Part shown: positions 3,006-46,790 of the stretch, in pieces
Position numbering within the stretch: position 1 is the first letter of the stretch
Layout of the letters: every line of letters starts with the position of its first letter
From: Blautia luti
GTDB lineage: Bacteria; Bacillota; Clostridia; Lachnospirales; Lachnospiraceae
Direction of reading: 5' to 3'
Length of the DNA stretch: 64,000 nucleotides
Assembly: GCF_033096465.1 (NCBI RefSeq)
Contig: NZ_AP028156.1
Coordinates: forward strand, 97,001 to 161,000
Notes under the pieces: generated by a model
The model's database searches: none
The model's input: the letters and a program-made list of their open reading frames with translations, nothing else
What the model was told of the DNA's origin: nothing
Made by a program: the position numbers and the translations under genes

Positions 3006-3008
3006 AAA

Positions 3009-3719: not shown

Positions 3720-3754
3720 GGAGATTTGTAGGAATGATACCCCGGTATTTATTT

Positions 3755-3790
3755 GTTACTGTGCACGGAGTGTACAGTAACATTTATTTT
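3755..3790 (+). terminator. Imperfect hairpin after the thioesterase gene
   Basis: Arms GTTACTGTGCAC and GTGTACAGTAAC (3755-3781) are complementary except at one position, with a 3-nt loop and a T-rich tail. It may terminate the thioesterase unit. Because the arms form a near-palindrome around GTGCAC/GTGTAC, a protein-binding site is also possible. Confidence 0.45.
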
Positions 3791-3844: not shown

Positions 3845-3961
3845 ACAGGTAACAGTAAGATATTTTCCGGTTGGGATATTGTACAGGAATACAAAAACCG
3901 GGAGAATATGAAAATCGTTGCCCCAAAATATGAATGAAAAAAGCAAAAGGAGAAGGAAATT

Positions 3962-4657: not shown

Positions 4658-4682
4658 GAATCAGTGAATAAGAGATAAAAAA

Positions 4683-4728
4683 TCTCCCGGAAAGAGTGAG
4701 CGCTACTCTGAAATCCGGGAGACTTTTT
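4683..4728 (+). terminator. araD terminator
   Basis: Arms TCTCCCGGA (4683-4691) and TCCGGGAGA (4714-4722) enclose a second helix AGAGT/ACTCT and are followed by CTTTTT. Confidence 0.9.
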
Positions 4729-4738
4729 ATTTTGCACC

Positions 4739-4767
4739 TTAACAATTACATTTATTTACCTTATAAT
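4739..4767 (+). promoter_or_regulatory. Promoter for the duplicated membrane protein
   Basis: TTAACA (4739-4744), a 17-bp spacer and TATAAT (4762-4767). The predicted transcript start, about 4774, lies too close to an in-frame ATG at 4782 to allow a ribosome-binding site. This supports the ATG at 4845 as the real start of the next gene. Confidence 0.65.
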
Positions 4768-4844
4768 GAACTCATAAGAGAATGCAAGAAATTAGGTTGA
4801 TATACTGGAATAGTAAGGATTTCAGACAACTGGAGGAAATGCAT

Positions 4845-6425: not shown

Positions 6426-6518
6426 TTTGTGTTATACTGAAATATAAAGCCAATGCCAGGCTATAATTGACATTGCAGAATATTGTACCGGCAAGATGAC
6501 AACAGAAATGGAGATTAT

Positions 6519-7358
6519 ATGATAGAGTTAGGAAAAAAACAGAAATTAACAGTAGTAAAGTCCGTAGATTTCGGTATTTATCTGGGTGAGGATATGCATG
6601 CGGATGCGAAGAACCGTGTACTTCTTCCATCCAAACAGGTTCCGGAAGGAACAAAAGAGGGCGACAGCATTGAAGCATTTATTTACAAAGATTCTCAGGA
6701 CCGCCTTATCGCAACAACAAAAGAACCGAAACTTCAGGTAGGACAGACCGCAGTCCTGAAAGTATCTCAGGTGACCAGAATCGGAGCATTCCTTGACTGG
6801 GGATTGGAGAAAGACCTTCTGCTTCCATATCATGAGCAGACTTTGAAAGTAAGAGAAGGCGAGGATGTACTGGTAGCGCTCTATATCGACAAAAGCAGCC
6901 GTCTCTGCGCAACGATGAAGGTTTATCACTACCTTTCAACCAGAACTCCTTATGTAGTAGGAGATATGGTAAAAGGCCGTGTCTATGAGATCAGCGACAG
7001 ATTCGGTGTATTCGTGGCAGTTGATGACAAATATTCCGCATTGATCCCTGCAAGAGAAGCTAAGGGAAAATACCGTCCGGGTAAGATCCTGGAACTGCGT
7101 GTCAGTGAAGTAAAAGAAGACGGAAAGATGAATGTCACAGACCGTCAGAAAGCATATCTGCAGATCAACGAGGATGCCGAAAATGTCCTGGAAGTCATCA
7201 ATGAATTCGCAGGTGTTCTTCCATTTGACGATAAAGCATCACCGGAAGTCATTCAGAGAGAATTTGGCCTGAGTAAGGGTGCTTTTAAGCGTGCCATTGG
7301 ACATCTGATGAAAGAAGGCAAAGTAGAAATTAAAGATAAGAGAATCTACGCGAAGTAA
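6519..7358 (+). CDS. cvfB: CvfB-like S1-domain RNA-binding protein
   Basis: A 279-residue protein of the CvfB/YitL family: tandem S1-type RNA-binding domains followed by a C-terminal winged helix. Tell-tale segments are TRIGAFLDWGLEKDLLLPYHEQ, DRFGVFVAVDDKYSALIPA and the final FGLSKGAFKRAIGHLMKEGKV winged helix. In Staphylococcus aureus CvfB affects virulence gene expression; the role here is inferred to be post-transcriptional regulation. The ATG at 6519 is preferred over an upstream in-frame TTG because GGAG lies 5 bp ahead of it. Confidence 0.85.
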   Translation: MIELGKKQKLTVVKSVDFGIYLGEDMHADAKNRVLLPSKQVPEGTKEGDSIEAFIYKDSQDRLIATTKEPKLQVGQTAVLKVSQVTRIGAFLDWGLEKDLLLPYHEQTLKVREGEDVLVALYIDKSSRLCATMKVYHYLSTRTPYVVGDMVKGRVYEISDRFGVFVAVDDKYSALIPAREAKGKYRPGKILELRVSEVKEDGKMNVTDRQKAYLQINEDAENVLEVINEFAGVLPFDDKASPEVIQREFGLSKGAFKRAIGHLMKEGKVEIKDKRIYAK

Positions 7359-7414
7359 AAAGAACTGTATAACCAATATAATAGTTAAAGCATAAGAACA
7401 GGAGAGATACAAAG

Positions 7415-10400
7415 TTGGAGTTTACACATCTTCATGTCCATACAGAATACAGTCTGCTGGATGGTTCCAATAAAATAAAAGAATATGTAGCCCGTGTCAA
7501 AGAACTTGGCATGGACAGTGCGGCGATCACAGATCACGGAGTCATGTACGGTGTGATCGATTTTTACCGTGCAGCAAGGGCCGAAGGAATCAATCCGATC
7601 CTGGGATGTGAGGTTTATGTAGCTCCCGGCTCCCGATTTGACCGTGAAGCAGGAAACGGGGAGGACAGATACTATCATCTGGTTCTCCTGGCAGAGAATA
7701 ATCAGGGATATGCCAACCTGATGAAAATCGTGTCTAAAGGATTTACCGAGGGATTTTATTACAAGCCAAGGGTAGATCTGGAGGTATTAAGAGAGTACCA
7801 TGAGGGAATCATTGCATTAAGTGCATGTCTGGCAGGTGAGGTTGCCAGATATCTTCAAAGAGGAATGTATGAAGATGCAAAGGCAGCAGCGCTGCGTTAT
7901 CAGGATATCTTTGGAAAGGGAAACTTCTTCCTGGAGCTGCAGGATCATGGAATTCCGGCACAGCAGGTAGTAAATCAGGAACTTTTGCGCATGCACGAAG
8001 AAACAGGAATCGATCTGGTGGCAACCAATGACGTGCATTATACAATGGCAGAGGATGCTGCGCCCCACGATATTCTTCTGTGTCTGCAGACGAACAAGAA
8101 ACTTGCAGACGAAGACAGAATGCGTTATGAAGGCGGACAGTATTATGTGAAATCTCCGGAGGAAATGGCGCAGCTTTTCCCATATGCACTGGAAGCCCTG
8201 GAAAACACTCATAAGATCGCGCAGAGATGCCACGTGGAGATTGAATTCGGCGTAACCAAGCTGCCGCGATTCGATGTGCCGGATGGTTTTACCTCCTGGG
8301 AATATCTGAATAAACTGTGTTTCGAGGGTCTGGAAGAACGTTATCATCCGGTTACTGATGAATTAAAATCCCGCCTGACATATGAATTATCCACGATCAA
8401 AAATATGGGATACGTGGATTACTTCCTTATTGTGTGGGATTTCATCAAATATGCCCGTGACAATGATATTATGGTAGGTCCTGGACGAGGTTCAGCAGCA
8501 GGAAGCCTTGTTGCCTACACTTTGGGTATCACACAGCTTGACCCGATCCGTTATGATCTGCTTTTCGAGCGATTCCTGAATCCGGAACGAGTATCCATGC
8601 CTGATATTGACGTTGACTTCTGCTTCGAAAGAAGACAGGAAGTGATCGAATATGTACGGCGCAAATACGGAGATGACTGTGTGGTTCAGATCGTTACTTT
8701 CGGTACACTGGCAGCCCGCGGTGTTATCCGTGATGTCGGCCGTGTTCTGGATATGCCCTATGCACAGGTTGCTGATATTGCGAAAATGATTCCCCAGGAG
8801 CTGAATATCACTATTGATAAAGCCCTGAAAATGAATCCTGAACTGAAGAAGGCATACGAAGAACAGGATGATGTCCACTATCTGATCGACATGGCGAGAC
8901 GTCTGGAAGGTCTTCCGCGGCATACCTCTATGCATGCAGCAGGCGTGGTGATCAGCCAGAAAGATGTTTCCGAATATGTACCTCTTTCCAGAGCACAGGA
9001 CGGTTCCATTGTTACTCAGTTCACCATGACAACACTGGAAGAACTGGGACTTCTGAAAATGGACTTCCTGGGTCTGCGTACCCTGACAGTGATCCAGAAT
9101 GCAGTGAAACTGATCCAGAAAGACGCAGGCGTTACGCTGGATATGCAGAAAATAGATTATAATGATAAGAAAGTTCTTGATTCTCTCGGTACCGGCCGTT
9201 CCGATGGTGTATTCCAGCTGGAAAGTGCAGGAATGAAGAACTTCATGAAAGAGCTGAAACCACAGAGTCTTGAAGATGTGATCGCGGGAATTTCCCTTTA
9301 CCGTCCGGGTCCTATGGATTTCATCCCCCAGTATATCCGGGGCAAAAACCGTCCGGATACCATCAAGTATGACTGTCCTCAGCTGGAGCCAATCCTTAAG
9401 CCGACTTATGGCTGTATCGTATATCAGGAGCAGGTTATGCAGATCGTTCGTAATCTGGCAGGCTATACCCTTGGACGAAGCGACCTTGTCCGCCGTGCCA
9501 TGTCCAAGAAAAAAGCGGCAGTTATGGAAAAAGAACGCCGGAATTTCGTATACGGAAATGAAGCTGAAGGGGTTCCGGGATGTATTGCCAATGGGATCGA
9601 CGAGGCAACAGCTAATAAGATCTATGATGACATGATCGATTTCGCCAAGTATGCGTTCAATAAATCTCATGCAGCGGCATATGCAGTTGTTTCTTATCAG
9701 ACTGCATATCTGAAGTACTATTATCCGATAGAATTTATGGCAGCGCTGATGACATCGGTGATTGATTTTCCTACAAAAGTAGCAGAATATTTCCTGGTAG
9801 GCCGTCAGATGGGAATCAAGATCCTTCCGCCGGATATCAATTGCGGAATGTATGGTTTCTCTGTAGATAACGGCGCGATCCGATATGGATTGTCTGCAAT
9901 TAAGAGTGTGGGGCGTCCAGCTATCGAGAGCCTGGTGGAAGAGAGAGAAAATAACGGGAAGTATAAATCCCTGAAGGATTTTATGGAACGAAATTCTTCC
10001 CAGATGAATAAACGAGCCATTGAGAACTTTATCAAAGCAGGTGCCATGGACTGTCTGGAGGGAAATCGCCGTCAGAAGATGATGGTCTATCAGCAGATTT
10101 CCGACAGCATCAGTCAGGAGAGAAAGAACAGTCTGGCAGGACAGATGAGCCTGTTTGACCTGGTCAGCGATGAGGATAAGAAGGAATTCGAGATCCGTAT
10201 GCCGGATGTGGAGGAATTTGATAAGGAAGAGCTGCTGGCATTTGAGAAAGAAGTTTTGGGAATTTATCTGAGCGGACATCCGCTGGAAAGCTGCAGAGGA
10301 ATGATGGAGAAAACAATTTCCGCGAGAACTATAGATTTCCAGCCGGATGAAGAGACAAATATCCCTAAGGTAGTGGATGGACAGAAGGTGATCATCGGAG

Positions 10401-26505: not shown

Positions 26506-26563
26506 GTCTGAAAAAATATCCCACAAATTGTGACGCATATCTTGCAGAAAGCCTTTTTCAGAC
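26506..26563 (+). repeat. Inverted repeat/hairpin in the NifX-FKBP leader
   Basis: Perfect 10-bp arms GTCTGAAAAA (26506-26515) and TTTTTCAGAC (26554-26563) surround a smaller palindrome, CACAAATTGTG. The right arm ends 9 bp before the 36-bp palindrome-ended element. It may be a terminator-like regulatory hairpin or a small repeat sequence. Confidence 0.5.
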
Positions 26564-26571
26564 AGGATCCA

Positions 26572-26607
26572 GGGGGACAGGAAAAATGTCTAGAAACACC
26601 GTCCCCC
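26572..26607 (+). repeat. Palindrome-ended short element, copy A
   Basis: 36 bp with perfect 7-bp terminal inverted repeats GGGGGAC/GTCCCCC. The core reads AGGAAAAATGTCTAGAAACA. It matches copies B (28177) and C (28230) in the core GAAAAATGyCTrGAAACAC. This copy lies in the 5' leader, ending 8 bp before the AGGAGG of the NifX-FKBP gene. Confidence 0.75.
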
Positions 26608-26631
26608 AAAAAAACAGGAGGAATTATACAA

Positions 26632-27868: not shown

Positions 27869-29293
27869 ATGAGAAGATCAGATGAATTTCAACCGGCAGA
27901 TCTGAAGGGAATTTCCATGATCCCTTTCGGACTGCTAGCAGGATTTATGGATGAAAAAGAAATCAGAATCACAGAGCTTGCAGAAGAAGGATTTCGGTTT
28001 CGACTGTCGGAGAAGGCAGTCAGACCGAAATCCTTTTACGTATGTTTCTATGATATGGAGAGATCAACTTATGAAAAAATATGTCTGCAGGATTATAAAC
28101 TGATAGAAATAGCAGACGAAAACGGTAAGCCAGGACAACCAGAAAATGAAATCACAGAAAACTCCTGGGTTTCGCAGGGACAAGAAAAATGCCTGGAAAC
28201 ACCGTCCCCATATACAGCATGGGTTCAGTGGGAAAAGGAAAAATGCCTGGAAACACAATCCCTCATAAGAAAATTCCAAGAACAATACAGCAGATATATC
28301 CGCCTGAAACTGGAAGATGACGATGAAGAACTCGCCAGGGTATTAACGGGATACCCGGAAAAAAAGCCAGTTAATTATTATGATCAGGAAGAGAAACAGA
28401 ATTACAGCCCGGAAACAGCAATTGAAATTGACCGGCCGGAATTATACAGAGAGTATCTGCAGAAAGATATAAGCCATCTGGTGAGACAATGTTACGAATG
28501 GAAATGGATAGCGAAAAGTGTGTCAGAATCAAAATCTAATTTCAGACCAGATCGTATTTACATTGGAAATCAGTTCTGTCACCTGTTATTCCCGAATGAA
28601 AAAGAACTATTTATGATGCTGGAGAAAGCACATAAGGAATCTCTTGGAATTACAATTGCGTTCTCTTATGTCCGGGAGTTTATGTTAAATCCCGTGGAAG
28701 AGCTGGTAAATCGTCTTGCGCAATGGTGCAGAGAAAAAGATACCTGCATAGAAATCGTTATAAATGACTGGGCGATGGCAGATATTATAGCAAAACAAAA
28801 TGTAGAATCAGCAAGACCATATCTCATTCCCTGTTTGGGAATTTTGTTAAATAAGCGAAAAAAGGATCCAAGATTCCCCTATAAAAAAGGTGATAAAAGC
28901 CTGTACAGTCAGAACAATCTAAATGCAGATTTCTATCGCGAATATCTGCAGAGCGAGTTTGGAATTCAGCGCTATGAATGGGAATCCTGCGGCTATGAGC
29001 AGGAATTTCCACAGGGAAAAAACAGTCTGCATCTTCCCTACTATCAGACCAATACTTCCCAGTATTGCCCACTCCACGCAATCTGTACAACAGGAAACCG
29101 AGGTATGCAGCGTCTGGTGAAAGAATGTCCATATTATTGCAGTACCTATACTCTGACATATCCAAAACATCTGAACATGACCGGACGCTTTAATTCTTTA
29201 TTTGGCATAGATAAAGAATTACTGGAACATCCGGAAAAAATAGCAGGTTACATAAACGCAGGAATAAATCGATTAGTTATCAGCTGGAGGTGA
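27869..29293 (+). CDS. U32-peptidase-like Fe-S protein carrying two inserted palindromic repeats
   Basis: A 474-residue protein. The C-terminal half has features of the U32/UbiV family: VINDWAMADI, then IPCLGILLNKRKKDPR, and a cysteine set CPLHAICTTGNR...CPYYC likely to hold a 4Fe-4S cluster. The N-terminal variable region contains two in-frame insertions of a dispersed repeat, visible as QEKCLETPSP and KEKCLETQSL, 18 codons apart. The ATG at 27869 is preferred to 27854 because GGAG is suitably placed. The gene is 5 bp from a second U32 gene, which suggests a heterodimer as known for UbiU-UbiV. Substrate unknown. Confidence 0.65.
   Translation: MRRSDEFQPADLKGISMIPFGLLAGFMDEKEIRITELAEEGFRFRLSEKAVRPKSFYVCFYDMERSTYEKICLQDYKLIEIADENGKPGQPENEITENSWVSQGQEKCLETPSPYTAWVQWEKEKCLETQSLIRKFQEQYSRYIRLKLEDDDEELARVLTGYPEKKPVNYYDQEEKQNYSPETAIEIDRPELYREYLQKDISHLVRQCYEWKWIAKSVSESKSNFRPDRIYIGNQFCHLLFPNEKELFMMLEKAHKESLGITIAFSYVREFMLNPVEELVNRLAQWCREKDTCIEIVINDWAMADIIAKQNVESARPYLIPCLGILLNKRKKDPRFPYKKGDKSLYSQNNLNADFYREYLQSEFGIQRYEWESCGYEQEFPQGKNSLHLPYYQTNTSQYCPLHAICTTGNRGMQRLVKECPYYCSTYTLTYPKHLNMTGRFNSLFGIDKELLEHPEKIAGYINAGINRLVISWR
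28177..28208 (+). repeat. Palindrome-ended short element, copy B (inside a gene)
   Basis: 32 bp with 5-bp terminal inverted repeats GGGAC/GTCCC and core AAGAAAAATGCCTGGAAACA. It is translated in the host gene as Gly-Gln-Glu-Lys-Cys-Leu-Glu-Thr-Pro-Ser. Confidence 0.75.
28230..28262 (+). repeat. Palindrome-ended short element, copy C (inside a gene)
   Basis: 33 bp bounded by GGGA/TCCC with core AGGAAAAATGCCTGGAAACA. It is more diverged than copy B at its 3' side (CACAATCCC in place of CACCGTCCC), lies in the same reading frame and is 54 bp from copy B at the core. Confidence 0.7.
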
Positions 29294-32654: not shown

Positions 32655-35600
32655 TTATTTCACAGTGACTGATTTTACAGATGACCATGTGGAATAATAT
32701 TTCTTGCCGCTGACAGTCTTATAAGTTCTGATGCGGACATAATATTTTTTCTTTGAGGTCAGGTTCTTGAGTACTGCGGATTTGGCAGAGCTTTTCGCTG
32801 TGATGTGTTTGGCATTTTTCATATCACTGCGCCGGCTGTAGTAGATCTGGTATCTGCTGATGGATTTCCTTGCTGTCCAGGAAACTGTGGCCTGTTTTTT
32901 GGCAGTTGATTTCAGGGACAGTTTGGAAGTGGTGAGAGGACGAACTGTTACGGAGATTTTTTTGGATGCTTTCTCGTAATCCTGTCCTCTGGCAGCTGTG
33001 ATAGTGAGTGTAACTTTACCAGGAGCTACAGGGATAATCTTAGTTCCGGAAACCTTGACGATTTTGGAATTGGAAGATTTCAGGGTGATTTTACCATCTG
33101 TTTCTGCTGTAAAGATGCTGGTCTTCTTGGTACTCTGATTCAGAGTCACACTTTTGGCAGTGATCACGGCAGGGATTCGGGCATTGGTGATGGTAAAGGT
33201 TCTGGTCATGGAGCCGGTGTAATTGCCCTGGCCTGTGATGTTTACAGTGGCAGTACCGACATCGATGTTATCGCTGTAGGAAACAGTGAAATCAGTATCT
33301 GGTACAAGCATTTTGTCTCTGGATTTCACAGTAACTGAAGGTTTCTGCTCTGTGCCGTTGTATCTGAAAATATCGGCAGAAAGAGAGGCAGTCAGCTGGC
33401 TGATATCAGCAGGGGTGATGGTGAATTCCTTTGTGATAGTGCCGGAGTAGTTGCCTTTACCTTTGATGGTTGCTTTGGCAGTACCTGCATTTGTGTTGTT
33501 ACTGTAAGAAACAGTGAAATCCGTGCCGGAAACCAATACCTTATCGCCAGATTTCACAGTAGCACCTGGTTTCTGTGCGGAACCGGTATAAGTAACTGTA
33601 TCTGCAGAAAGCTCAGCGGAAAATCCGGAAAAATCAGCCGGAGTGATCGTAAACTGTTTCCTGATAGAACCGGAATAGTTACCTTTACCTGTAATAGTGA
33701 CAGTGGCAGTGCCTGCGTTTACATTGCTGCTGTAAGAAACTGTAAAGTCGGTATCTGCAGTTAACTGTGCATTATCGGATTTCACAGTGACTACAGGTTT
33801 CTTTTCTGCGCCATCGTAGATAAAGGAATCAGCAGAAAGAGAAGCTGTGAATTTGCTGAGGTCAGCCTGAGTGATCTTAAAAGATTTCGTAATGGTACCG
33901 GAATAGTTGCCTTTGCCTGTAATAACGGCTTTGGCAGTGCCGACATTAATGTTGTCAGTGTAGGAAACGGTGAAGTCAGTACCGGAAGTCAGCTGTTTAC
34001 TGCCGGATTTCACAGTAACCTCAGGTTTCTTTTCTGTGCCGTCATAGCTGAATGTGCCTGCTGCTAGTGAAGCAGTCAGTTTGCTGAAATCCGCCGGAGT
34101 AATGATGAATTCTTTTGTAATAGAACCGGAGTAATTGCCCTTACCTGTAATGACTGCGGAAGCTGTGCCTACGTTTACATTGTTACTGTAGGAAACAGTG
34201 AAGTCCGTGCCGGAAGTGAGCGCTTTGTTTCCGGATCTGACTGTTGCGGACGGTTCCTTTTTAGAACCATCGTATCCAAATGTGCTTGCTGAGAGGGAAG
34301 CGGTAAAATTTGCGATGTCAGCCGGAACAATCCTGAAGCTTTTTGATGTAGAACCGGTGTAGTTATTTCTGCCTGATATTGTTACCGTAGCAGTACCTAC
34401 AGCACGGTTATTGCTGTAGGAAACCGTGTAATCTGAACTGGCAGTTAAGGTGTTATTACCGGATTTTACAGTAACTTCAGGTCTTTTGTCGGAACCGTCA
34501 TACGGGAAAGAATCTGCAGATAATATAATGCTGCAGTTACTGATGTCCTGTTTCCGAATTGTGAAATACTGGGTTAATGTACCTTTGTAATTGCCCTGGC
34601 CGGTGATGCATGCCCGTGCGTAATTAGTAACTTTGATATTGTTAGTATAAGCGACGGTATAATCAGTATCTGGTGTCAGTTTCTTACCATTATGTGTGAC
34701 ACTTACGGCTGGTTTTTGTTCAGAACCGTTGTAGTAAGCGGATTCAACGGAGATACTGGTATCAGTTGCTGTTAGTGTTTGAGGATTAATACGGTAAGTG
34801 GTGCTTACAGAACCTGTATATTTACCAATACCTGTGGCTGTTACTGTAACAGTACCTGCATTTACGAGATCTCCTTCGTAAGAAAGTTTAAAATCTGTTC
34901 CTTCTGTTGCTGCAGCACCGTTTATTGTTAAGGTTGCAGATGGTTTATGTTCAGTTCCATCGTAATTATAGGTACTTCTTTTAAGAGAAAGACGGGAATG
35001 GCTGCTGTCGATCATATTGACATAAAAATCGGTTTTCAGGACATAATCGTCGCTGTATTTGGATTTAATGCTGATAGTGGCTTTGCCGGCTTTTTTGGCA
35101 GTGATCGTAGCCATATCAATTGTATTCATTTTTATAGACAGAACACTTTCATCTGAATTGCTGATCACACATTCTGATAATTCAGGATAAGATGAATTGG
35201 CAGAATTGAACTTAGGAGTCCACCAGAGATCGGCAGACTGTCCAATATCCATATAATTAGATCTGCCCATATAGATATAGTTATAACTGTCAGGTTCTTT
35301 CTTCTTCCACAGATTGATAGAGGTAGGAACGGAAACGGTATCCTGATAGCCGCAGGCTGTACAGGAACGTTTCATTAATCCATTAACTGGGGTTCCATTG
35401 GCAAACTTGTGACCATTTGTAATCCTTGAAGCATGATTCTCTGAAAGGTTGGACAGGTTGATGCTGTAAAAGGTATTTACCTCATTTTTCCAGGTATACC
35501 AGATCAGTTTTCCATTTACAATGACTGGAACACAATCAGACAGATTTCCTACCATCTGGTAAATAGAACTGGTTTGCTGTCCGTTTCCGTCCAGAGCAGT

Positions 35601-36956
35601 ATAGTAAACATGTCCCTGGCTGGACCACATAATGATGAAACTGTTGCTGCCTGTTTTGATCAGATGGGGAGCAGAGGCTGTATCTTCAGTTCCTGCATAG
35701 TTGGAAAGATAACGGATCACTGGTGTATCACCGGATTTTGGGGCAGAAAGGATGAAAACATTTCTGGTGGTTCTGGTATTGTCAATATCACAACTTCCTG
35801 CAACCAGATAAGAAGAATCTGAATATTCAAATCCGCCTACTGTAGCAGCCGTATAAGTACCGCCGCCTAATGTAAAATCCATTATTACAGAGGTAGAGAA
35901 ATTCTTGGTAAAACGTCCGGTGCTGCTGTCAATGGTACTTTTGACAAGATTGATTCCTCGTGGATAGGTATCACCCTGATCTACTCCCAGGAAGGTTCCA
36001 TTATCCATTTTCAGAAATTGTGTAAAAGTATGACTTACGTAACCGGAAGGGGTATATTCCACTTTATAATACTGATCCATAATACTCATATCGGAAGTAT
36101 TTACAGAGAAAGTTACATTTGCCTGATGTCCATTATACATAACATGACAGGTTCTGACATAGAGGTAGTTTCCGGATACCATCATTCTGGCTGTTCCGAA
36201 TGCAAATGGCTGGGCAGTATTGGCACCAAAAAGGCTGCAGGAGCCCTGGGCTTTCCAGTCTTTGGAATATTTTGTCACACGGTAGGTTTCCACAGAATCA
36301 TTATGATCCGGGTTGTTTTGACCAGTGAGAATATAGTAATTGTCATTGCTTTCATAGAATGCGCCGAAAATTGGCAGGGACAGATCCAGTGTCATTGCTC
36401 TTTTGAAGTTATAGGATGTGTCGTAATATTCGATCAGAAGCTTACCATCCAGGGCACCGGCCTGTACACGCATAAGGTTGCCGTCAGGGCTTGTGGTGAG
36501 ATAGGAATCGATGGTTGTAGCCCAGGCTTCATAGTCCTGAGATTCCAGATTGCTTCCCTTGTAAGTATCGCAGATTGTTTTTAGAGAAGGATCATTTTCA
36601 ATGTCTGCTTCTACAATAGAATAATTAAAATGAGTAGAGATGGAATTCTCCAGACCGCCGGCAACCGGCGCTTCTTCTGTTTCCACCTCATCAGAAGAGA
36701 ATTCACTGTTCGTTTCTTCATCAGTGAAAATCTCGTCTTCAGAATCAAAAGCTGCTGTGTCGTCTGTGGCATCATCTGCCGAGAAATCGTCTGTGGCTGT
36801 CGGATCTGCGACAGCTGAATTGGTGTCTGTCTGAGCCTGCGTGCTGTCTTCTGTAAAGTCAGAGCCGTCTGAAAAATCAGTGGCACTGACTGGAGATGTT
36901 CCTAGCAGGCAGATAGAAAGCAGGACAGATAGAGATTTTAAAGTTCTGTTTTTCAT
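32655..36956 (-). CDS. Giant secreted repeat protein with C-terminal Fn3-like domain
   Basis: 1433 residues. A signal peptide (KSLSVLLSICLLGTSPVSA) is followed by TDFSDGSDF and an acidic disordered stretch to about residue 95. A domain at about 100-520 looks like a beta-propeller-type extracellular region, with a CxxC (CTACG) at its end. A bacterial Ig-like module leads into eight tandem copies of an about 77-residue MBG-type repeat (GTDFTVSYSNN...GKGNYSGS). It ends in another Ig-like module and an Fn3-like domain (KKYYVRIRTYKTVSGKKYYS). There is no LPxTG motif, so anchoring is unknown. AAGGAGGAG precedes the start. Its N- and C-termini resemble the protein at 38499. Confidence 0.85.
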   Translation of the reverse strand: MKNRTLKSLSVLLSICLLGTSPVSATDFSDGSDFTEDSTQAQTDTNSAVADPTATDDFSADDATDDTAAFDSEDEIFTDEETNSEFSSDEVETEEAPVAGGLENSISTHFNYSIVEADIENDPSLKTICDTYKGSNLESQDYEAWATTIDSYLTTSPDGNLMRVQAGALDGKLLIEYYDTSYNFKRAMTLDLSLPIFGAFYESNDNYYILTGQNNPDHNDSVETYRVTKYSKDWKAQGSCSLFGANTAQPFAFGTARMMVSGNYLYVRTCHVMYNGHQANVTFSVNTSDMSIMDQYYKVEYTPSGYVSHTFTQFLKMDNGTFLGVDQGDTYPRGINLVKSTIDSSTGRFTKNFSTSVIMDFTLGGGTYTAATVGGFEYSDSSYLVAGSCDIDNTRTTRNVFILSAPKSGDTPVIRYLSNYAGTEDTASAPHLIKTGSNSFIIMWSSQGHVYYTALDGNGQQTSSIYQMVGNLSDCVPVIVNGKLIWYTWKNEVNTFYSINLSNLSENHASRITNGHKFANGTPVNGLMKRSCTACGYQDTVSVPTSINLWKKKEPDSYNYIYMGRSNYMDIGQSADLWWTPKFNSANSSYPELSECVISNSDESVLSIKMNTIDMATITAKKAGKATISIKSKYSDDYVLKTDFYVNMIDSSHSRLSLKRSTYNYDGTEHKPSATLTINGAAATEGTDFKLSYEGDLVNAGTVTVTATGIGKYTGSVSTTYRINPQTLTATDTSISVESAYYNGSEQKPAVSVTHNGKKLTPDTDYTVAYTNNIKVTNYARACITGQGNYKGTLTQYFTIRKQDISNCSIILSADSFPYDGSDKRPEVTVKSGNNTLTASSDYTVSYSNNRAVGTATVTISGRNNYTGSTSKSFRIVPADIANFTASLSASTFGYDGSKKEPSATVRSGNKALTSGTDFTVSYSNNVNVGTASAVITGKGNYSGSITKEFIITPADFSKLTASLAAGTFSYDGTEKKPEVTVKSGSKQLTSGTDFTVSYTDNINVGTAKAVITGKGNYSGTITKSFKITQADLSKFTASLSADSFIYDGAEKKPVVTVKSDNAQLTADTDFTVSYSSNVNAGTATVTITGKGNYSGSIRKQFTITPADFSGFSAELSADTVTYTGSAQKPGATVKSGDKVLVSGTDFTVSYSNNTNAGTAKATIKGKGNYSGTITKEFTITPADISQLTASLSADIFRYNGTEQKPSVTVKSRDKMLVPDTDFTVSYSDNIDVGTATVNITGQGNYTGSMTRTFTITNARIPAVITAKSVTLNQSTKKTSIFTAETDGKITLKSSNSKIVKVSGTKIIPVAPGKVTLTITAARGQDYEKASKKISVTVRPLTTSKLSLKSTAKKQATVSWTARKSISRYQIYYSRRSDMKNAKHITAKSSAKSAVLKNLTSKKKYYVRIRTYKTVSGKKYYSTWSSVKSVTVK
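33180..34980 (-). repeat. Eight tandem about 231-bp (77-residue) repeats
   Basis: Within the giant surface protein the unit recurs with a period of about 231 bp. The anchor segment is Gly-Lys-Gly-Asn-Tyr-(Ser/Thr)-Gly-(Ser/Thr). The five central copies are closest to each other. The N-terminal copies (GIGKYTGS, GQGNYKGT) and the last copy are more diverged, as expected for internal expansion. Confidence 0.85.
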
Positions 36957-38498: not shown

Positions 38499-41400
38499 AT
38501 GAAAAGGATGTTTGCAATACTGCTGGCATTTCTGGTACTTGTTCAATCTACCTGGGTCTTGGCAGCAGATTTTTCAGATGGGACAGGAGATGATACTTTT
38601 TCTTCGGGATCAGAAGACATGATAACAGAGCCATCTGAAGAAGAGATTTTTTCTGAACCGGATATGTCTTCGGAGGATGAAACGTCAGAGGATAATTTTT
38701 CGACGTCTGATGAGGAGGAAAATGAAACACAATCAGCGCAAAACGATCAGGAACAGGAAATAACTGCAGAAAGCCTGATTGGAAAAGATTATTATGCAGG
38801 ATCTGACTATATAGGATTCTTCAGAGGAACAACTACTTCTGATAATAAAGAGATCTATTTTAAATGGAAAAAAGGATATGAGATCCTGTATCTGTACATA
38901 TCGGATGTGCATAGTACTTCGCCGGATCACTTTTCTACATTGCTGTACTTAAATTATATGAGCGATTTTTCCACTGTTTCTGTTTCAGAAAGAAAGTCTT
39001 ATTATGGGGCTTGTCTGGAAGGTACTTTGGAGAAAAATGGACAATGGGAATTTAAAATAACAGATATTTTTGGGTCAGTAGTATACAGGCAGAATTTTGA
39101 TGAATCTGGTCAGAAGGCACTTTTTGATCTGAATGATCAGAGGATTCTGCTGGACAGTGAAGGAAGTGTAAAGGGATCTTATTATGTAAGAGACGGGAAC
39201 TCAGTCAAAGCGGAACTCGATTTGATCACATGGGAGATCCAGGATACGAAAATTGCGCAATTTAAAGGTTTTTCCTATGATATTTCAGCAGAAAATTCCA
39301 GAAATGTAATTGCTTCACTAAACATAAAATTAAAAGCTGTCAATGTGGGAAAAACGACTTTGACAGGTACTACTGCGGAGGGAAAAACAGTATCCTGTAC
39401 TATTTATGTAGAACCTGAGATGAAAGTTACAGCACCGGTAAGCATTCCTGACAGTGATGAGATCATATGTAAGATTTCTCTTCCAAAGGCAAATAAAGAT
39501 TATCTGGATAATTATATGAAAAATCTGAAACATACGATCAAGAATAATGATTCAACAGGTTCCTTAACAGAGGATTCTTTTTCATATAGTATTTCTTCTG
39601 ATAATACCAGCGCTTCAGGAATATTAAAAGTAAGAGCTTCCGGTTCTCAGGGAAGTGCAGATATCACTTTCACATCAGAAGGTGGATTTTCGAAAACGGT
39701 TAATGTTCCTATTGCAAGAGATAACATTTCAGATTACTTTGTGCTGAGAAAAGATACGAATCGTTTTGATCATGCTCATAGTACTTGGGGGACTGCAGAT
39801 TTTTCAACGGATTATCTGGATCTTCTTTTAAACATGCAGTCGAAACATCCGGTCATCAGCAAAAACAGATTACGCCAGGAAGAGCACAGAGCCTGGGATG
39901 GTTCCTGTCTGGGAATGGCATTATCTATGATTTACATGAATGAAGGAATGCTGTCTGAGCGTTTAGGAGATACCTATTATTACAGTTTCGACAACCCGCT
40001 TAAAGGTTCGCCGTTAATGAATACGATCAATTATTATCAGCTTTGCCAGAATTCAGATAATTTTTCATATTCTCATAGTACATATAAAGAAGGACTTACA
40101 AACCTTTTAATGGGAGAAAGTCTTAGCTCTTTTTTGAAAAATATGGTTACAGAAGCAAAGAAGAGTTCTAATGAACGCCTGCCATTCTGCTTTACCTATA
40201 CCTATACTTATATGGTCGATAATAAATCTCACACAGATGGTCATTCAGTAGTAGTATGCGGATATGAAAAAGATGCTCATACAGGCGGGCATCTGATAAA
40301 AATTTACGATTGCAATACGATATCTTCCAGGTATCTGTATATGAATATTTCTTCAGATTTCAAATCTTTTTCATTTACAGACAGTAATGGCGCGGTGTTA
40401 AATTCTTTATGGAAAAATATGCAGTTTATAGGAATTAATGATCTGGCATCCGCATCATGGAATCTGTTAAAGAATTCAGGAAAAAGTATGGTAAGTGTCA
40501 ATGCTGCATCCGCGTCACAGAATACTGCTGAAATAAGTTTTTCTGCATATAAACAGTTTAATCTGAAAAATGAAAAAGGACAGACACTGTCATATGATGG
40601 AAATACATATGCGGGAAATCTGCCGGTATATTCTTCAAAAGTAAGTGGTGAAACAAACCCTGTTATTACAATTGAAACGGATCCGGTTAATTCTTTCGAG
40701 GTTTCCGGTTTTACTGATGAATTTGAGATTTCGGCAGAGATAAATGGAAAATATTATAATGCCAGTACAGATGGTGCTTCGAAAATAGTGCTGGATAAAA
40801 CGAATGGAATTGTGACAGATGGAGAAAATTACTCATTTTCTATGGCGGTAAGTGCAGATCTTCAGACTTGTGATCTTTTTCAAGTTTCCGGATCAACCAG
40901 TGGAACAAGTAACATGACCAGTGATGCTGATAAGATTACTTATCAATCGGAAGAGACAGTTTCCGGTGTAAATGTAGCTATTTATAATGGAAATGATTAT
41001 CGTACGGAGAATGTGAATTCTGATTGTGATGAAATCAGTTTCTCCGATACATCTGCAGGGCAGTTAAGTGTTTCGAAAATATTGACATCCGGAAGCTGCG
41101 GAGCAGATGCTCAGTGGAAATTAAATACCCGGGGGATACTCACGATCAGTGGTTCTGGTAAAATGGAGGATTTATATGGAGAAACTTTTGTGCCTTCTTA
41201 TTATCAGTCCAAGGTAAAGAAAGTAGTAATACAGAATGGGATCACAAGGATAGGTGGTGCGGCATTTTTTGAATTGAGTAATCTGAAAGAAGCTGTGATT
41301 CCTGAGAGTGTGACGGAGATTGGATATCAGGCGTTTGCATTTTGCGGGATGTCAGATATTGTAATTCCGGCATCAGTTATTACCATTGAGGAAGGGGCAT

Positions 41401-42704
41401 TTACAAGTGATAATCTGAAGAGTATCTCTGTAAATGCGGATAATAAATCCTTTACTTCTGTAGATGATGTTCTGTTCAGTAAAGATAAAACAGTGCTGGT
41501 GGCATATCCGGGAGGCAAGGCTGCGGAGTCTTATTCAATTCCGGAGGGAACACAGAAGATCGGCATTATGGCGTTTGAAATGCAGAGTAATCCGGAGTCT
41601 GTTATAATTCCGGCAAGTGTGGATTATATAGGAGAACAGGCATTCGGATGGATGGGCAAGAAACTGAAAAGTATTTATTTCAAGGGGGATATGCCGGTAT
41701 TCGAGGAGAATTCCTATAGCAATGTATTTTCGAATACGACGACTACAGCGTATTATCCTGATGATAACAGTACGTGGAAAAGAAGTTCACTTCCCGGTGT
41801 GTCATCAGTAACATGGAAAACCTGGACAGTACCCGGAAAGCCGACAGTGACACCGACGGCAACGCCTACGCCAACGCCAAAACCGACGGTGACACCGACA
41901 CCAACGGCGAAGCCAACGCCAAAGCCGACGGTGACACCGACACCAACGGCGAAGCCAACGCCAAAACCGACAGCAGCGCCGAGCCCAACGGTGACACCAA
42001 CACCAACGGCGAAGCCCACAGCGACACCAAGGCTGACGGTAACGCCTGGTCCCACAGCGACGCCGAAACCGACAGCAGCGCCGAGCCCAACGGCAGCGCC
42101 TGAACCAACGGAAACACCTGCGCCGAAGCCAACGGTGGCACCGACAGCAACCCCTGCACCAACGGCGAAGCCCACAGCAGTTCCAACCCCTGCTGTGCTT
42201 ACAGGAAAGTTCACAGTCACTCTTTCCAAAACATCCTATACCTATAATGGAAAAAAACAGACTCCGAAAGTTACAGTAACTTATAAAGGAAAAACTGTTT
42301 CTTCGAAATACTATACAGTAAGTTACAAAAACAACAAAAACGTAGGAAATGCATCTGTCACTGTAACGGGAAAAGGAAAATACAAAGCCTGCTCAGGAAA
42401 AGCATCATTTAAAATTATCCTAAAGCCAGGAAATATATCAGAACTGAAAGCCGGAAAGAAATCCGCATCTGTCAAATGGAGCAAAATATCAGGAGCAGCC
42501 GGATATCAGCTGCAGTACAGCACCAGCAAAAAATTCTCAAAGAGTAAAACTGTAAAGATATCAGGAACTGCAAAAAATAAGCAGACAATTAAAAGTTTAA
42601 GTTCCCAAAAGACTTATTATGTAAGAATCCGTGCATATAAGACGGTAAACGGTAAGAAATGGTACGGAGCCTGGTCGAAGAGTAAAAAATGTTGTGTTAA
42701 ATAA
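38499..42704 (+). CDS. Giant secreted protein: papain-like peptidase, BspA-type LRRs, Fn3-like
   Basis: 1401 residues. A signal peptide (MFAILLAFLVLVQSTWVLA) is followed by ADFSDGTGD and an acidic disordered stretch to about 85. An Ig-like module lies at about 210-310. A papain/C39-like peptidase domain (about 440-650) has candidate Cys470 (DGSCLGMALSM), His582 (DGHSVVVCGYE) and then IYDCN. Leucine-rich repeats of the BspA type follow (about 900-1085, AFFELSNLKEAVIPESVTEIG). Next are a Thr/Pro-rich linker (about 1113-1232), one MBG-type repeat and an Fn3-like domain (TYYVRIRAYKTVNGKKWYG). No sortase signal. It is probably an exported adhesin-protease. Confidence 0.85.
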   Translation: MKRMFAILLAFLVLVQSTWVLAADFSDGTGDDTFSSGSEDMITEPSEEEIFSEPDMSSEDETSEDNFSTSDEEENETQSAQNDQEQEITAESLIGKDYYAGSDYIGFFRGTTTSDNKEIYFKWKKGYEILYLYISDVHSTSPDHFSTLLYLNYMSDFSTVSVSERKSYYGACLEGTLEKNGQWEFKITDIFGSVVYRQNFDESGQKALFDLNDQRILLDSEGSVKGSYYVRDGNSVKAELDLITWEIQDTKIAQFKGFSYDISAENSRNVIASLNIKLKAVNVGKTTLTGTTAEGKTVSCTIYVEPEMKVTAPVSIPDSDEIICKISLPKANKDYLDNYMKNLKHTIKNNDSTGSLTEDSFSYSISSDNTSASGILKVRASGSQGSADITFTSEGGFSKTVNVPIARDNISDYFVLRKDTNRFDHAHSTWGTADFSTDYLDLLLNMQSKHPVISKNRLRQEEHRAWDGSCLGMALSMIYMNEGMLSERLGDTYYYSFDNPLKGSPLMNTINYYQLCQNSDNFSYSHSTYKEGLTNLLMGESLSSFLKNMVTEAKKSSNERLPFCFTYTYTYMVDNKSHTDGHSVVVCGYEKDAHTGGHLIKIYDCNTISSRYLYMNISSDFKSFSFTDSNGAVLNSLWKNMQFIGINDLASASWNLLKNSGKSMVSVNAASASQNTAEISFSAYKQFNLKNEKGQTLSYDGNTYAGNLPVYSSKVSGETNPVITIETDPVNSFEVSGFTDEFEISAEINGKYYNASTDGASKIVLDKTNGIVTDGENYSFSMAVSADLQTCDLFQVSGSTSGTSNMTSDADKITYQSEETVSGVNVAIYNGNDYRTENVNSDCDEISFSDTSAGQLSVSKILTSGSCGADAQWKLNTRGILTISGSGKMEDLYGETFVPSYYQSKVKKVVIQNGITRIGGAAFFELSNLKEAVIPESVTEIGYQAFAFCGMSDIVIPASVITIEEGAFTSDNLKSISVNADNKSFTSVDDVLFSKDKTVLVAYPGGKAAESYSIPEGTQKIGIMAFEMQSNPESVIIPASVDYIGEQAFGWMGKKLKSIYFKGDMPVFEENSYSNVFSNTTTTAYYPDDNSTWKRSSLPGVSSVTWKTWTVPGKPTVTPTATPTPTPKPTVTPTPTAKPTPKPTVTPTPTAKPTPKPTAAPSPTVTPTPTAKPTATPRLTVTPGPTATPKPTAAPSPTAAPEPTETPAPKPTVAPTATPAPTAKPTAVPTPAVLTGKFTVTLSKTSYTYNGKKQTPKVTVTYKGKTVSSKYYTVSYKNNKNVGNASVTVTGKGKYKACSGKASFKIILKPGNISELKAGKKSASVKWSKISGAAGYQLQYSTSKKFSKSKTVKISGTAKNKQTIKSLSSQKTYYVRIRAYKTVNGKKWYGAWSKSKKCCVK
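41838..42195 (+). repeat. Thr/Pro-rich linker with 42-bp direct repeats
   Basis: A coding low-complexity tract. The 42-bp unit starting at 41883 recurs at 41925, encoding the 14-residue unit Pro-Thr-Val-Thr-Pro-Thr-Pro-Thr-Ala-Lys-Pro-Thr-Pro-Lys; degenerate copies follow. It forms an extended cell-wall-spanning style linker and is a likely site of length variation. Confidence 0.85.
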
Positions 42705-42753: not shown

Positions 42754-43572
42754 CTACTGGTACCGCAACATAACAATTGAATCAAAGCTATCTCCGTGAT
42801 CCAGCCACTGGCAGCTGCCGTCATTTTTGGTGCAGATGTCTTCGATGATAGATAAGCCGAAGCCATGGTTTACGATATCGGATTTGGAGGTTTTGTGGTC
42901 AAAAGTTTGTGCAGGGTCTTTGCTGTTTCGCATATGTATGGTAAGAAAACCAGCTGACATGCGTGAGGTCACGGAAATAAAAGGTTCCGGAAGTCCGCAT
43001 GTACTGCAGCTCTCAAGTCCATTATCCAGGAGATTGAAAAATATACTGCTCAGTTCAGAAGAAGAAATGCACGACTTCTCCGGAAGAAGGATCTCATAGC
43101 TGATTTTGACATTTTTCTGCAAAGCCAGAAATCTTTTGTCCGCAAGGATCGCATTGATCAGGCTGTCATGGCAGATCGGGTGGAAACGCTCCTTCTGGAA
43201 ATTATCTGTAATAGCAGGAAGGTAGTTCTGGATCTTATCATATTCACCTGACTTCAGATAAGTCTGAAGTGTCTGGAGATTCTGGATCGTGGCCTGCTGG
43301 AATGCCAGCGTTTCCTGACGTCTGGAAATAAAAAGCTGTTCCTGATCTTTCTGCAGCTGTTCCTGTTTCTGAAGAGACTGGAATTCTGCCTCCTGCTGGG
43401 CGTTTTTCAATGACTGTTTAACCAGAAGATAGAGATGCCTGTAAATAAACAACAGCAGGAAAGACTGGATAAGCAGGAAAATATAGGCAATTTCAGACTT
43501 TACGGAAAGCAGAAAATTGCACAGCTGGACTCCGAAAATTTCCAGAAACAAAATAATAAAACCAGATTTCAT
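42754..43572 (-). CDS. GHKL ATPase half of a split AgrC-like sensor kinase
   Basis: 272 residues. Two N-terminal membrane segments (FIILFLEIFGVQLCNFLL, IAYIFLLIQSFLLLFIY) and a coiled coil (about 65-105) lead to a dimerisation helix and a GHKL ATPase domain, with N-box FFNLLDNGLES and G-box HGFGLSIIEDI. Where AgrC-type kinases carry the phospho-accepting H-D-x-x-N, this protein reads ATIQN (in LAFQQATIQNLQTL), so it lacks the His. Its ATG overlaps the stop of the upstream gene (ATGA), with GAGGA just ahead, so the two are translationally coupled. It should bind ATP but cannot autophosphorylate at the usual residue. Confidence 0.8.
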   Translation of the reverse strand: MKSGFIILFLEIFGVQLCNFLLSVKSEIAYIFLLIQSFLLLFIYRHLYLLVKQSLKNAQQEAEFQSLQKQEQLQKDQEQLFISRRQETLAFQQATIQNLQTLQTYLKSGEYDKIQNYLPAITDNFQKERFHPICHDSLINAILADKRFLALQKNVKISYEILLPEKSCISSSELSSIFFNLLDNGLESCSTCGLPEPFISVTSRMSAGFLTIHMRNSKDPAQTFDHKTSKSDIVNHGFGLSIIEDICTKNDGSCQWLDHGDSFDSIVMLRYQ

Positions 43573-44471
43573 AAGTTCCTCTTTTCCGGCGGAAGATCTG
43601 AAAGAAGAGATTCCAGATATTTCTCTGCCTCATCGTATTTCTTAGTGTTTATCAGGTAATTCAAAGAAAAAAGATGATTCTCCATGTCGTGGTTCCATTT
43701 GCGCACAGAACGGTATTCCTTCTCCATTTCCTGTGAAAATTCCATCTGTTTTCTGGTAAAATCCATCTGCTGAACAAGCAGCTCATGCTCCTTTTCCCTG
43801 GCGTAGATATTGCGGAAAGCCCGAAGCACAATAAAATAACAGAGAAATTCAATCAGCCAGTACAGAAAGATCAGCCAGCCATACCAGGGAGAATTTTCCT
43901 TATACAGGATCAATCCCGTAATAAGAGACGAAACCTGTGCAGGAAAGACCAGTTCTGCAAGGGTAGTCAGATGGATGCTGTGAGAGTACTTTTTCAGCAG
44001 GGGAACTACCTTCGAGATGATCAGTAATGCAATAAGGAAGGTCAGAGTTGTCATAAGAAGGAGTTCCCATGTGGTAGAAAGCGTATGGTAAATGTTATAA
44101 GCTGCTTCTCCGTGGAGCAATGCATAAAGTGACAGGATCAATGATCCGGAAATGGATTCAGAGATCATCATGATCGAGATATAGATCAAAAATGCCGAAA
44201 GCTTCCTTTTCAATGTATCTGTAAAAAGGAGAATCACCCACAGGACAAGGGCTAGCTGGAGCACCCAGGTTCCGAAACTCTGATAAAAATATTTTACGAC
44301 AATGGCGAAAGCCGTAGAGATCATAAAACAAAGAAAAATCCGTACGCGGCTTCGGGAGAGAAATTTCCCGGAAGGTGTAAGGATGCCGGGGAAAAAGAGA
44401 GCAGCGCAGCAGGAAATGGAAAAGGATGCCGGTAAAAGTGAACATAATAAATATTTGAGAATATAAACCAT
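43569..44471 (-). CDS. Sensor/His half of a split AgrC-like kinase (no ATPase domain)
   Basis: 300 residues. About six or seven membrane segments fill residues 1-215, like the AgrC/ComD sensor. A helical hairpin then carries a full H-box, RKWNHDMENHLFSLNYLI, and the family continuation KYDEAEKYLESLLSDL. The protein ends there (PEKRNL-stop), with no GHKL ATPase domain. The ATPase domain is supplied by the next, overlapping gene. A LytTR response regulator gene precedes it by 29 bp. The alternative is an ordinary kinase gene broken by mutation, but the next gene has its own membrane segments and coiled coil, which argues for two real proteins. Confidence 0.78.
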   Translation of the reverse strand: MVYILKYLLCSLLPASFSISCCAALFFPGILTPSGKFLSRSRVRIFLCFMISTAFAIVVKYFYQSFGTWVLQLALVLWVILLFTDTLKRKLSAFLIYISIMMISESISGSLILSLYALLHGEAAYNIYHTLSTTWELLLMTTLTFLIALLIISKVVPLLKKYSHSIHLTTLAELVFPAQVSSLITGLILYKENSPWYGWLIFLYWLIEFLCYFIVLRAFRNIYAREKEHELLVQQMDFTRKQMEFSQEMEKEYRSVRKWNHDMENHLFSLNYLINTKKYDEAEKYLESLLSDLPPEKRNL

Positions 44472-45291: not shown

Positions 45292-45390
45292 ATGGTGGAA
45301 AGTCTACGGCAAATATTACAGCAGCAGATCGTGAAGGGGAGAAACATGCCAAATATTACAGTTTTATGGTTAATTATGCAAATTGGTTGA
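45292..45390 (+). CDS. Candidate 14- or 32-residue hydrophobic peptide
   Basis: A 32-codon ORF (MVESLRQILQQQIVKG then RNMPNITVLWLIMQIG). AGGA lies close to the first ATG. An internal ATG at 45346 has a better site, AGGGGAG, and would give MPNITVLWLIMQIG. The peptide has an amphipathic, basic-ending first half and a hydrophobic second half. A terminator-like hairpin lies 88 bp downstream, which makes a separate small transcript plausible. A cognate signal for the neighbouring sensor is possible, but an ORF this short can arise by chance. It has no AgrD-type Cys. Confidence 0.35.
   Translation: MVESLRQILQQQIVKGRNMPNITVLWLIMQIG
45310..45361. repeat. 12-bp direct repeat pair, 40 bp apart
   Basis: CAAATATTACAG occurs exactly at 45310-45321 and 45350-45361 (reverse strand CTGTAATATTTG). 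A 40-bp period is close to four helical turns. It could be a regulator-binding site in the divergent region. Confidence 0.4.
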
Positions 45391-45617: not shown

Positions 45618-46790
45618 ATGTTTACTTTAGTTCAGAAAAAGAAACAAAATACGCAGAGTATAGAAGGAAATATACATAAATCTCAGGATATTTTTGGTAA
45701 ATATCAATCCGACTGCCTGAAGGGAATTGCCATCATTATGCTTATTGCCCATCACTGCTTTTTGGGGCCATCCCGTTATAAAGGTCAGGAGCTTATTTTT
45801 ATCATACCTGAATCAGTGTGGAATTATGTTGCTCTTTTCTTTAAAATATGTGTGTCGCTTTTTGTTTTTATCAGTGCATATGGATTAACGAAAAAGATGA
45901 TGTCTTTGCCAAAAGATGCAGATAGTCAGACCACCCATAAATTTATAGGAAATATGATTTTATCAAGGGTGATCCGTCTGCTGGGAGGATTTATTTTTGT
46001 ATTTTTGCTGGTAGATATTTTTGCATTATTCTATGATCCGGGGCGTCTGGCTGAAATTTACGGAAGCGTCTTTCCTCTGAATATGGAATACTATATCCTG
46101 GATATGCTTGGCCTGGCCCAGCTGCTGGGGACACCTACATTTCTCGGAACTTACTGGTATTACAGCCTGGCACTGATACTGATCGTACTTGTTCCCCTGT
46201 TTTATCTGCTTTTAGAGAAGGTGGGGTCTTTAGCGTTTTTGTGTGTGGTTGCAGTACTGAATTTTACAGTTACTTTCGGAAACATAAATATCTGGCATTA
46301 TATCTTGTGCATTGCTGTCGGTATTGCTGCGGCTTATGGTAACACGATTACCCGAATGGTACAGTTTCGGATATGTGGCAATAATGTGATTAATAAAATT
46401 TTGAAATTCCTGCTGGAATTTTCAGGAATACTACTTGTGATGAGCGTACGTGAAGGTCCGTTAAAGGGTGTTCTGTATCCGTTCTGGGATGCGGTTATTC
46501 CGGTTATGGTAACGGCTTTTGGATGTGAGTTCCTTTTCTCCCTGCCGGGACTTAAACAGGTCCTGAGGTTCCTGGGAGTATATTCTGCGAATATTTTCCT
46601 GGTTCATAACTATATCCGCAGGGTTTGGTTCTATGATTTTACATACAGTTTTAAATACCCGCTGTTGATCGTAAATGTATTGATGATCATTTCGCTGATG
46701 CTCTCTATTGGGATAGAATTTTTGAAGAAAGTTCTTCATTATAATGAGGCCGTTGGCAAGATTGTTAAGCTTATAAGTCGGGGAAGGTGA
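45618..46790 (+). CDS. Acyltransferase-3 family membrane protein
   Basis: A 390-residue integral membrane protein with about ten membrane segments. The N-terminal motif DCLKGIAIIMLIAHHCFLG carries the His pair and Arg/Asp-like arrangement of acyltransferase-3 (OafA/YrhL) proteins, which O-acylate cell-surface sugars or related acceptors. SAYGLTKKM and LGTYWYYSLALI are also family-like. The acceptor is unknown. AGGAGG precedes the ATG. Confidence 0.8.
   Translation: MFTLVQKKKQNTQSIEGNIHKSQDIFGKYQSDCLKGIAIIMLIAHHCFLGPSRYKGQELIFIIPESVWNYVALFFKICVSLFVFISAYGLTKKMMSLPKDADSQTTHKFIGNMILSRVIRLLGGFIFVFLLVDIFALFYDPGRLAEIYGSVFPLNMEYYILDMLGLAQLLGTPTFLGTYWYYSLALILIVLVPLFYLLLEKVGSLAFLCVVAVLNFTVTFGNINIWHYILCIAVGIAAAYGNTITRMVQFRICGNNVINKILKFLLEFSGILLVMSVREGPLKGVLYPFWDAVIPVMVTAFGCEFLFSLPGLKQVLRFLGVYSANIFLVHNYIRRVWFYDFTYSFKYPLLIVNVLMIISLMLSIGIEFLKKVLHYNEAVGKIVKLISRGR

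Follow-up and report, generated by a model that had tools for sequence, protein, structure and literature searches.

A probable divided-labour AgrC-like sensor kinase in Blautia, with related loci in other Lachnospiraceae

In the window, the 64,000-nucleotide stretch of Blautia luti DNA analysed here, the products of two overlapping genes most probably share the work of one AgrC-like sensor kinase, membrane-bound and hetero-oligomeric, in which the partners have undergone complementary loss: the phosphoacceptor His and the catalytic domain lie on two proteins, each without the other's part. In the proposed mechanism, the multi-TM domain of the receptor (H) subunit would do the sensing and the same subunit would carry the phosphoacceptor His (HDxxN), while the ATPase (A) subunit, placed beside it via its TM helices, coiled coil and His-less DHp helices, would bind ATP and phosphorylate the H subunit in trans; the phosphate would then pass from the H subunit to a LytTR regulator, which the H subunit may also dephosphorylate. 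We infer the binding, the trans phosphorylation, the stoichiometry and the phosphatase role, and a trans-phosphorylating heterodimer appears to fit the sequences best. As to origin, one kinase would have lost its ATPase domain and a partner kinase its His. The initial annotation of this DNA had instead pictured one kinase split in two; the complementary lacks that it described stand, and two kinases with complementary losses are the better description.

Table 1. Features of the divided kinase locus, in window coordinates.
Feature	Position	Strand	Basis or remark
Receptor (H) subunit gene, 300 aa	44471..43569	(-)	ORF list
ATPase (A) subunit gene, 272 aa	43572..42754	(-)	ORF list
LytTR response regulator gene, 235 aa	45208..44501	(-)	29 bases upstream of receptor gene
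ATGA, receptor stop / ATPase start overlap	43572-43569	(-)	sequence
AGAGG, five bases before ATPase-gene ATG	43582-43578	(-)	sequence
His261 codon, predicted phosphoacceptor	43689..43691	(-)	invariant in 19/19 diverse receptor halves
Gln93 codon, at H-box His position	43294..43296	(-)	alignment
N-box FFNLLDN, residues 178-184	43021..43041	(-)	N180, N184 invariant in 18/18 diverse members
G-box HGFGL, residues 236-240	42853..42867	(-)	H236, G237, G239, L240 invariant in 18/18 diverse members
Two identical 12-nt copies CAAATATTACAG	45310 and 45350 (span 45310..45361)		upstream of regulator; possible regulator site

The receptor half has a multi-TM sensor (seven hydrophobic segments in a hydropathy scan), a coiled coil and the H-box RKWNHDMENH, and it ends 39 residues past the His. 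Nothing ATPase-like was found in it by Pfam at E<=10; its DHp match, SPOB_a at residues 247-297, scores 24.3 bits and so lies under the curated cut-off of 28.1. HDxxN is the pattern of phosphoacceptor, base and phosphatase residues, and Asp262 and Asn265 are as invariant among the 19 diverse receptor halves as His261. The receptor half has 24 matches, 22 of which cover the H-box and read WNHD without exception; the stop falls 39 residues past the His in 21 of these 22. The odd one out is P0146, a metagenome homolog in which the receptor continues in frame into the start of the ATPase half and then goes out of frame.

The ATPase protein consists of two TM segments (two hydrophobic segments in the hydropathy scan), a coiled coil, DHp-like helices without His, and a GHKL ATPase domain matched by HATPase_c_5 at 53.9 bits against a curated cut-off of 22; a weak SPOB_a match (17.9 bits) starts just past the His position. 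It is thus not simply the missing C-terminal part of the receptor: TM segments, coiled coil and DHp-like helices occur in it too, and part of the domain content is therefore common to both proteins. The AGAGG five bases before its ATG makes a separate start plausible for this gene. Much of what the initial annotation had read from the letters is confirmed by these data, namely two overlapping leftward genes at 42754-44471 (by ORF coordinates and the ATGA), a preceding LytTR regulator gene (by Pfam matches to LytTR at 76.1 bits and to the receiver domain at 43.4 bits), a receptor with multi-TM sensor and intact H-box and no ATPase domain (by Pfam, hydropathy and homolog alignment), and an ATPase protein with two TM segments, a coiled coil and a complete GHKL domain (by hydropathy and Pfam). 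Its reading of ATIQN at the H-box position of the ATPase protein needs adjusting: the His is indeed absent, but the aligned residue is Gln93, the second Q of AF-Q-Q-ATIQN, immediately before ATIQN.

The lack of the His is a conserved property of the ATPase family. Homologs of the ATPase half numbered 242 at E<=1e-3, and the best 120 of these 242, mostly of 270-300 aa plus fragments and a few longer proteins, were aligned with the query to the family model. Three of the resulting 121 rows do not reach the H-box position; in the other 118 it is never occupied by His, and the residues found are Q (58), E (36), T (8), F (4) and I (4), and more rarely K (3), V (2), A (2) and N (1). A His one place later (QEHMKE), where the H-box has Asp, occurs in 10 of the 121 rows. 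As a control, 20 other short-frame, lower-scoring matches to the ATPase-half model were taken from genus and family, and 19 of them carry an HD/HE H-box, so that shortness does not generally go with loss of the His in this superfamily; the exception, L176, is a 183-aa frame starting past the H-box position, and apart from it the 20 control frames yielded no further His-less case. In an alignment of all loci, with duplicated loci counted, 69 of the 80 longer rows have His there, and the apparent lack in L058, L029 and L108 is a gap artefact. A separate observation concerns L171 (G304), where a 282-aa protein (2911-3759, (+) strand; a weak match of 29.8 bits) adjoins a short complete kinase and has HYQKVM at the expected H-box; it is perhaps another His-less partner.

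Both families occur in the same genomes. Among 60 genomes of the window's genus, Blautia, the ATPase-half profile gave 14 matches of at least 224 bits in 11 genomes, the next match scoring 119 bits in a 454-aa frame, and the receptor-half profile gave 15 matches of at least 299 bits in 11 genomes; these are the same 11, and neither family is found at high score in the other 49. Lower receptor-half matches comprise one of 122 bits, in one of the 11 genomes, to a receptor ending before the DHp, and short matches near 50 bits, two in all, in two genomes outside the 11. A reading of the two genes as unrelated neighbours was rejected, given that the same 11 of 60 genomes carry both families. Searching genome contigs with a single protein as query found no relative; an 18-row alignment gave 23 loci, at least ten of them (L039-L048) of the window's type and one (L061) cut by a contig edge. 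Loci were picked for reading by their ATPase protein; those read comprise one mixed locus and 23 whose ATPase subunit lacks the His, and in 23 of these 23 the receptor and ATPase genes lie in one cluster.

Within these clusters the gene order varies widely: with RR for the regulator, we found RR-H-A, H-RR-A, RR-A-H, H-A-RR and A-H-RR-H, as well as RR-H-A-H, RR-A-H-H, RR-H-H-A and RR-H-H-H-H-A. In L076 the regulator is on the opposite strand, in L136 a short receptor (148 aa from the first start) is followed by two His-less kinases, and L078 has three receptor genes, one of which stops short of the DHp. One of the two receptor genes of L074 has an in-frame stop; this second gene (3951-4848, (+) strand), beside an intact one, is possibly decaying. 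If the two parts were not both needed, it would be hard to see why both are kept through repeated reshuffling. Selection on the two halves is purifying: over three genome pairs, the receptor half has a dN/dS of 0.16-0.23 and the ATPase half one of 0.12-0.22, with 0.15-0.25 for the regulator in two of the three pairs.

These observations bear on the simplest alternative, one kinase gene interrupted by a frameshift or stop, which we consider extremely improbable. Overlapping stop and start would suit such a break, as would P0146 with its in-frame passage into the A half, but coiled coil and DHp are present in both proteins, which interruption of one gene cannot give, the same boundaries recur at low identity, both halves are under purifying selection and the gene order is permuted; on these grounds the broken-gene reading was rejected. 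No strain of the species with one intact kinase at the locus was seen. The checks on relatives that the initial annotation had suggested also speak for its model. The two halves, whose adjacency was to be examined, share one cluster in all 23 loci, and the lack of the missing part is conserved in both lineages. Of the two findings that it had named as contrary to its model, an intact H-box His in ATPase orthologs does not occur among the query and the best 120 of 242 homologs, and a single intact kinase was not seen in relatives, all 11 of the 60 genus genomes with either family at high score carrying both halves in one cluster.

The system belongs near the AgrC/GHKL (HPK10-type) receptor kinases, with which it has in common a multi-TM sensor followed by an H-box, a DHp, an HATPase_c_5 domain and a LytTR regulator in the operon. 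It differs in that His and ATPase domain share one chain in AgrC and are on two chains here, and because this one-chain feature is lacking the pair is not AgrC by definition; the NCBIfam AgrC model scores 10.8 bits against an equivalog cut-off of 500.

Indirect evidence that the two halves may bind each other comes from a natural fusion. At L041 (= L077) an operon RR-H-A is followed by a 653-aa protein composed of a receptor, a linker and a His-less ATPase half, beside the separate halves. The fusion was folded as a single chain in place of the heterodimer, with 23 input rows (the fusion, 19 receptor halves and three ATPase halves) chosen by trial for correct alignment. A 52-row alignment, which laid the receptor DHp onto the DHp of the ATPase half, was discarded. 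The fusion model (mean pLDDT 76.1, pTM 0.52) is good over most of the ATPase domain and the sensor and poor in the linker, and its best fold matches in the PDB are the AgrC cytoplasmic kinase and ATP domain (6e52, 6e95, 4bxi), with many histidine kinases also among the matches; a PDB sequence search with the ATPase-half profile gave no match at 0.01. In a model of the A subunit alone (mean pLDDT 80.7, pTM 0.49), a helix of residues 29-108 runs from TM2 through the coiled coil into the DHp, followed by a helix at 111-129 and then the alpha/beta domain.

Given that TM segments, a coiled coil and DHp-like helices lacking the His are all retained in the A subunit, a mixed H-A dimer is favoured over two homodimers that meet. 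According to the latter reading, H and A would each form homodimers, and the A dimer would phosphorylate the H dimer in a transient complex or tetramer, in the manner of CheA4 on CheA3, with no mixed four-helix bundle. We regard this as rather unlikely but worth serious consideration: TM segments, coiled coil and DHp-like helices are present in both proteins, so that each could dimerise, mobility of the A subunit would be convenient where a locus has more than one receptor for it, and CheA3/CheA4 acts through separate proteins in the account cited below (PMC3591291). The fusion, however, has one H and one A part per chain, and an A subunit independent of its partner would have little reason to keep a DHp.

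A further possibility is that another complete kinase of the cell serves the receptor, the His-less protein being a separate ATPase, an inhibitor or a phosphatase regulator. The genome does hold other GHKL kinases (eight family matches) that might serve the receptor, which counts against the divided kinase, and His-less kinase-like proteins with a regulatory role exist, DivL being one. Such a role nevertheless seems improbable in view of the perfect co-occurrence and tight linkage of the two families, the retention of the ATP-site residues and the natural receptor-ATPase fusion.

Divided kinase loci are also present in nine further Lachnospiraceae genera (G105, G243, G270, G111, G241, G223, G246, G250 and G183), a number that is a lower bound and not a rate, good matches having been followed in samples of 299, 397 and 299 genomes. 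With a second receptor alignment in the family sample, G183 was the only weaker match followed, and G250 was followed among the stronger ones; most matches below about 60 bits have frames of more than 400 aa and are probably complete kinases. In an order sample of 295 genomes, with matches listed at E<=1e-26, the short-frame matches read, apart from the window's own (G027, G585), carry the His, and the best match, from G528, is a 606-aa kinase with LKHEMKNH. The ATPase subunits of G111, G241 and G246 keep the whole sensor domain (439-459 aa) and have the His replaced by Q, Q and R, respectively; with the sensor kept and the His lost, complementary loss is seen directly in these three. The ATPase subunit of the window's lineage may descend from a short complete kinase, since such kinases exist, or from a shortened AgrC-like kinase.

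The number of origins was addressed with trees of the ATPase domain (146 columns); these rest on a short alignment, have many open forks and flagged long branches, and their bootstrap is not fully settled. The first tree was calculated from 95 rows, 85 after near-copies (85%) were dropped, with 22 His-less labels, and gave five changes between His and no His, one of which was a labelling error: L056 had been labelled His-less through a gap effect and reads QKHDFLN. For the second tree (81 rows, 23 of them His-less), L055, L056, L058, L020, L036 and L052 were dropped and L169 and L170 added; six changes are needed, four of them forced by well-supported branches, and the His-less rows form one group in 0 of 200 bootstrap trees. 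The His thus appears to have been lost at least four times on the tree, the exact number being unsure because the alignment is short and the branches are long. G105, G243 and G270 group with the window's type in a single 16-row clade (support 96/86), and in the second tree G246, G223 and G183 each stand, with support, beside His-bearing kinases. Three arrangements share one supported clade of the first tree. G124 has a tandem array of five complete kinases around a single regulator (L140), the H-box being intact in each; in G396 a His-only receptor comes after a complete kinase, an intermediate state (L141); and G246 combines one His-less kinase with four His-only receptors (L138). These look like stages, their order in time being inferred. 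The tandem kinases of L140 are noted as a possible precursor state of divided systems.

Several loci have more than one receptor per His-less ATPase subunit, with four in L138 and two each in L135, L137, L169 and L086. Within L138, the sensor parts of the four receptors share 46-82% identity and their linker-plus-DHp parts 78-89%, and the corresponding values against the ATPase subunit are 43-52% and 48-51%; in five two-receptor loci the sensor parts are 25-65% and the DHp regions 55-89% identical. That the DHp is more alike than the sensors among co-located receptors is suggestive only, because DHp regions are expected to be more conserved anyway. Read most simply, such loci would have receptors for different inputs work through a single enzyme and a single regulator. 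On balance we believe, by a narrow margin of confidence, that one His-less ATPase subunit serves several His-only receptors, whose inputs would add up on or compete for one enzyme and LytTR regulator, and that division of the kinase came about on four or more occasions in Lachnospiraceae. Directly after the four-receptor locus of L138 lies a 760-aa protein (6472-8754, (+) strand) with no Pfam match, whose end, on reading, resembles a wall-anchor signal.

By analogy, the pair would work like a split kinase, and split kinases are already known. In CheA3/CheA4 of Rhodobacter sphaeroides, as the cited passage describes them, the phosphorylated His is on one protein and the catalytic domain on the other, and neither works alone; these are soluble chemotaxis CheA proteins with the His on a separate P1 domain (PMC3591291), in contrast to the membrane receptors here, whose His is on a DHp and which would feed a LytTR regulator. 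Hik36-Hik43 of Synechocystis is likewise one histidine kinase encoded by two genes together, with a two-hybrid interaction, but the architecture given in the cited passage is unrelated, Hik36 carrying an HPt domain and Hik43 having CA, CheW-like and receiver domains in CheA-like fashion (PMC7656254). A His-bearing DHp without recognisable ATPase domain also defines an annotation class in archaea, 'possible incomplete histidine kinase' or 'HisKA, no HATPase'; unlike the present case it is archaeal, and the passage cited names no partner ATPase protein (PMC5847659). Searches of open-licence PMC papers listed no membrane AgrC-like split kinase or shared catalytic subunit, which agrees with the statement in the initial annotation that no described AgrC-type system of such build was known to it.

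New here are that the split occurs in a membrane receptor, that it arose repeatedly and that the enzyme subunit may be shared. Each chain of an ordinary histidine kinase dimer has all the parts, which makes it difficult to assign the phosphorylating and the phosphorylated chain and to see how signal and catalysis are coupled. Nature seems to have built obligate heteromers several times in a major gut family, and such divided kinases would permit direct tests of cis versus trans phosphorylation and of dephosphorylation by the receptor alone, and also of the switch-like behaviour predicted for split kinases in the passage cited (PMC3591291). A shared catalytic subunit, if true, would be a cheap route for a bacterium to add receptors, and His-only receptors and His-less kinases met in annotation may be working parts and not fragments.

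Some neighbours of the system in the window are recorded here. An acyltransferase-3 family membrane protein (45618-46790, (+) strand), divergent from the regulator gene, is a possible target. Two very large probable surface proteins adjoin the system, one at 38499-42704 on the (+) strand, with BspA-type LRRs and a long PT-rich stretch, and one at 32655-36956 on the (-) strand, with fn3-like and repeated domains; the mature parts of both open with ADFSDG / TDFSDG. Further away, the peptide EKCLET is found at three places within two reading frames (window about 26550-26630 and 28154-28244, (+) strand), and two of the three copies sit in GGGACA-AAAAATG-(T/C)CT-GAAACACCGTCCCC-like DNA, which looks like a small repeat element within coding sequence.
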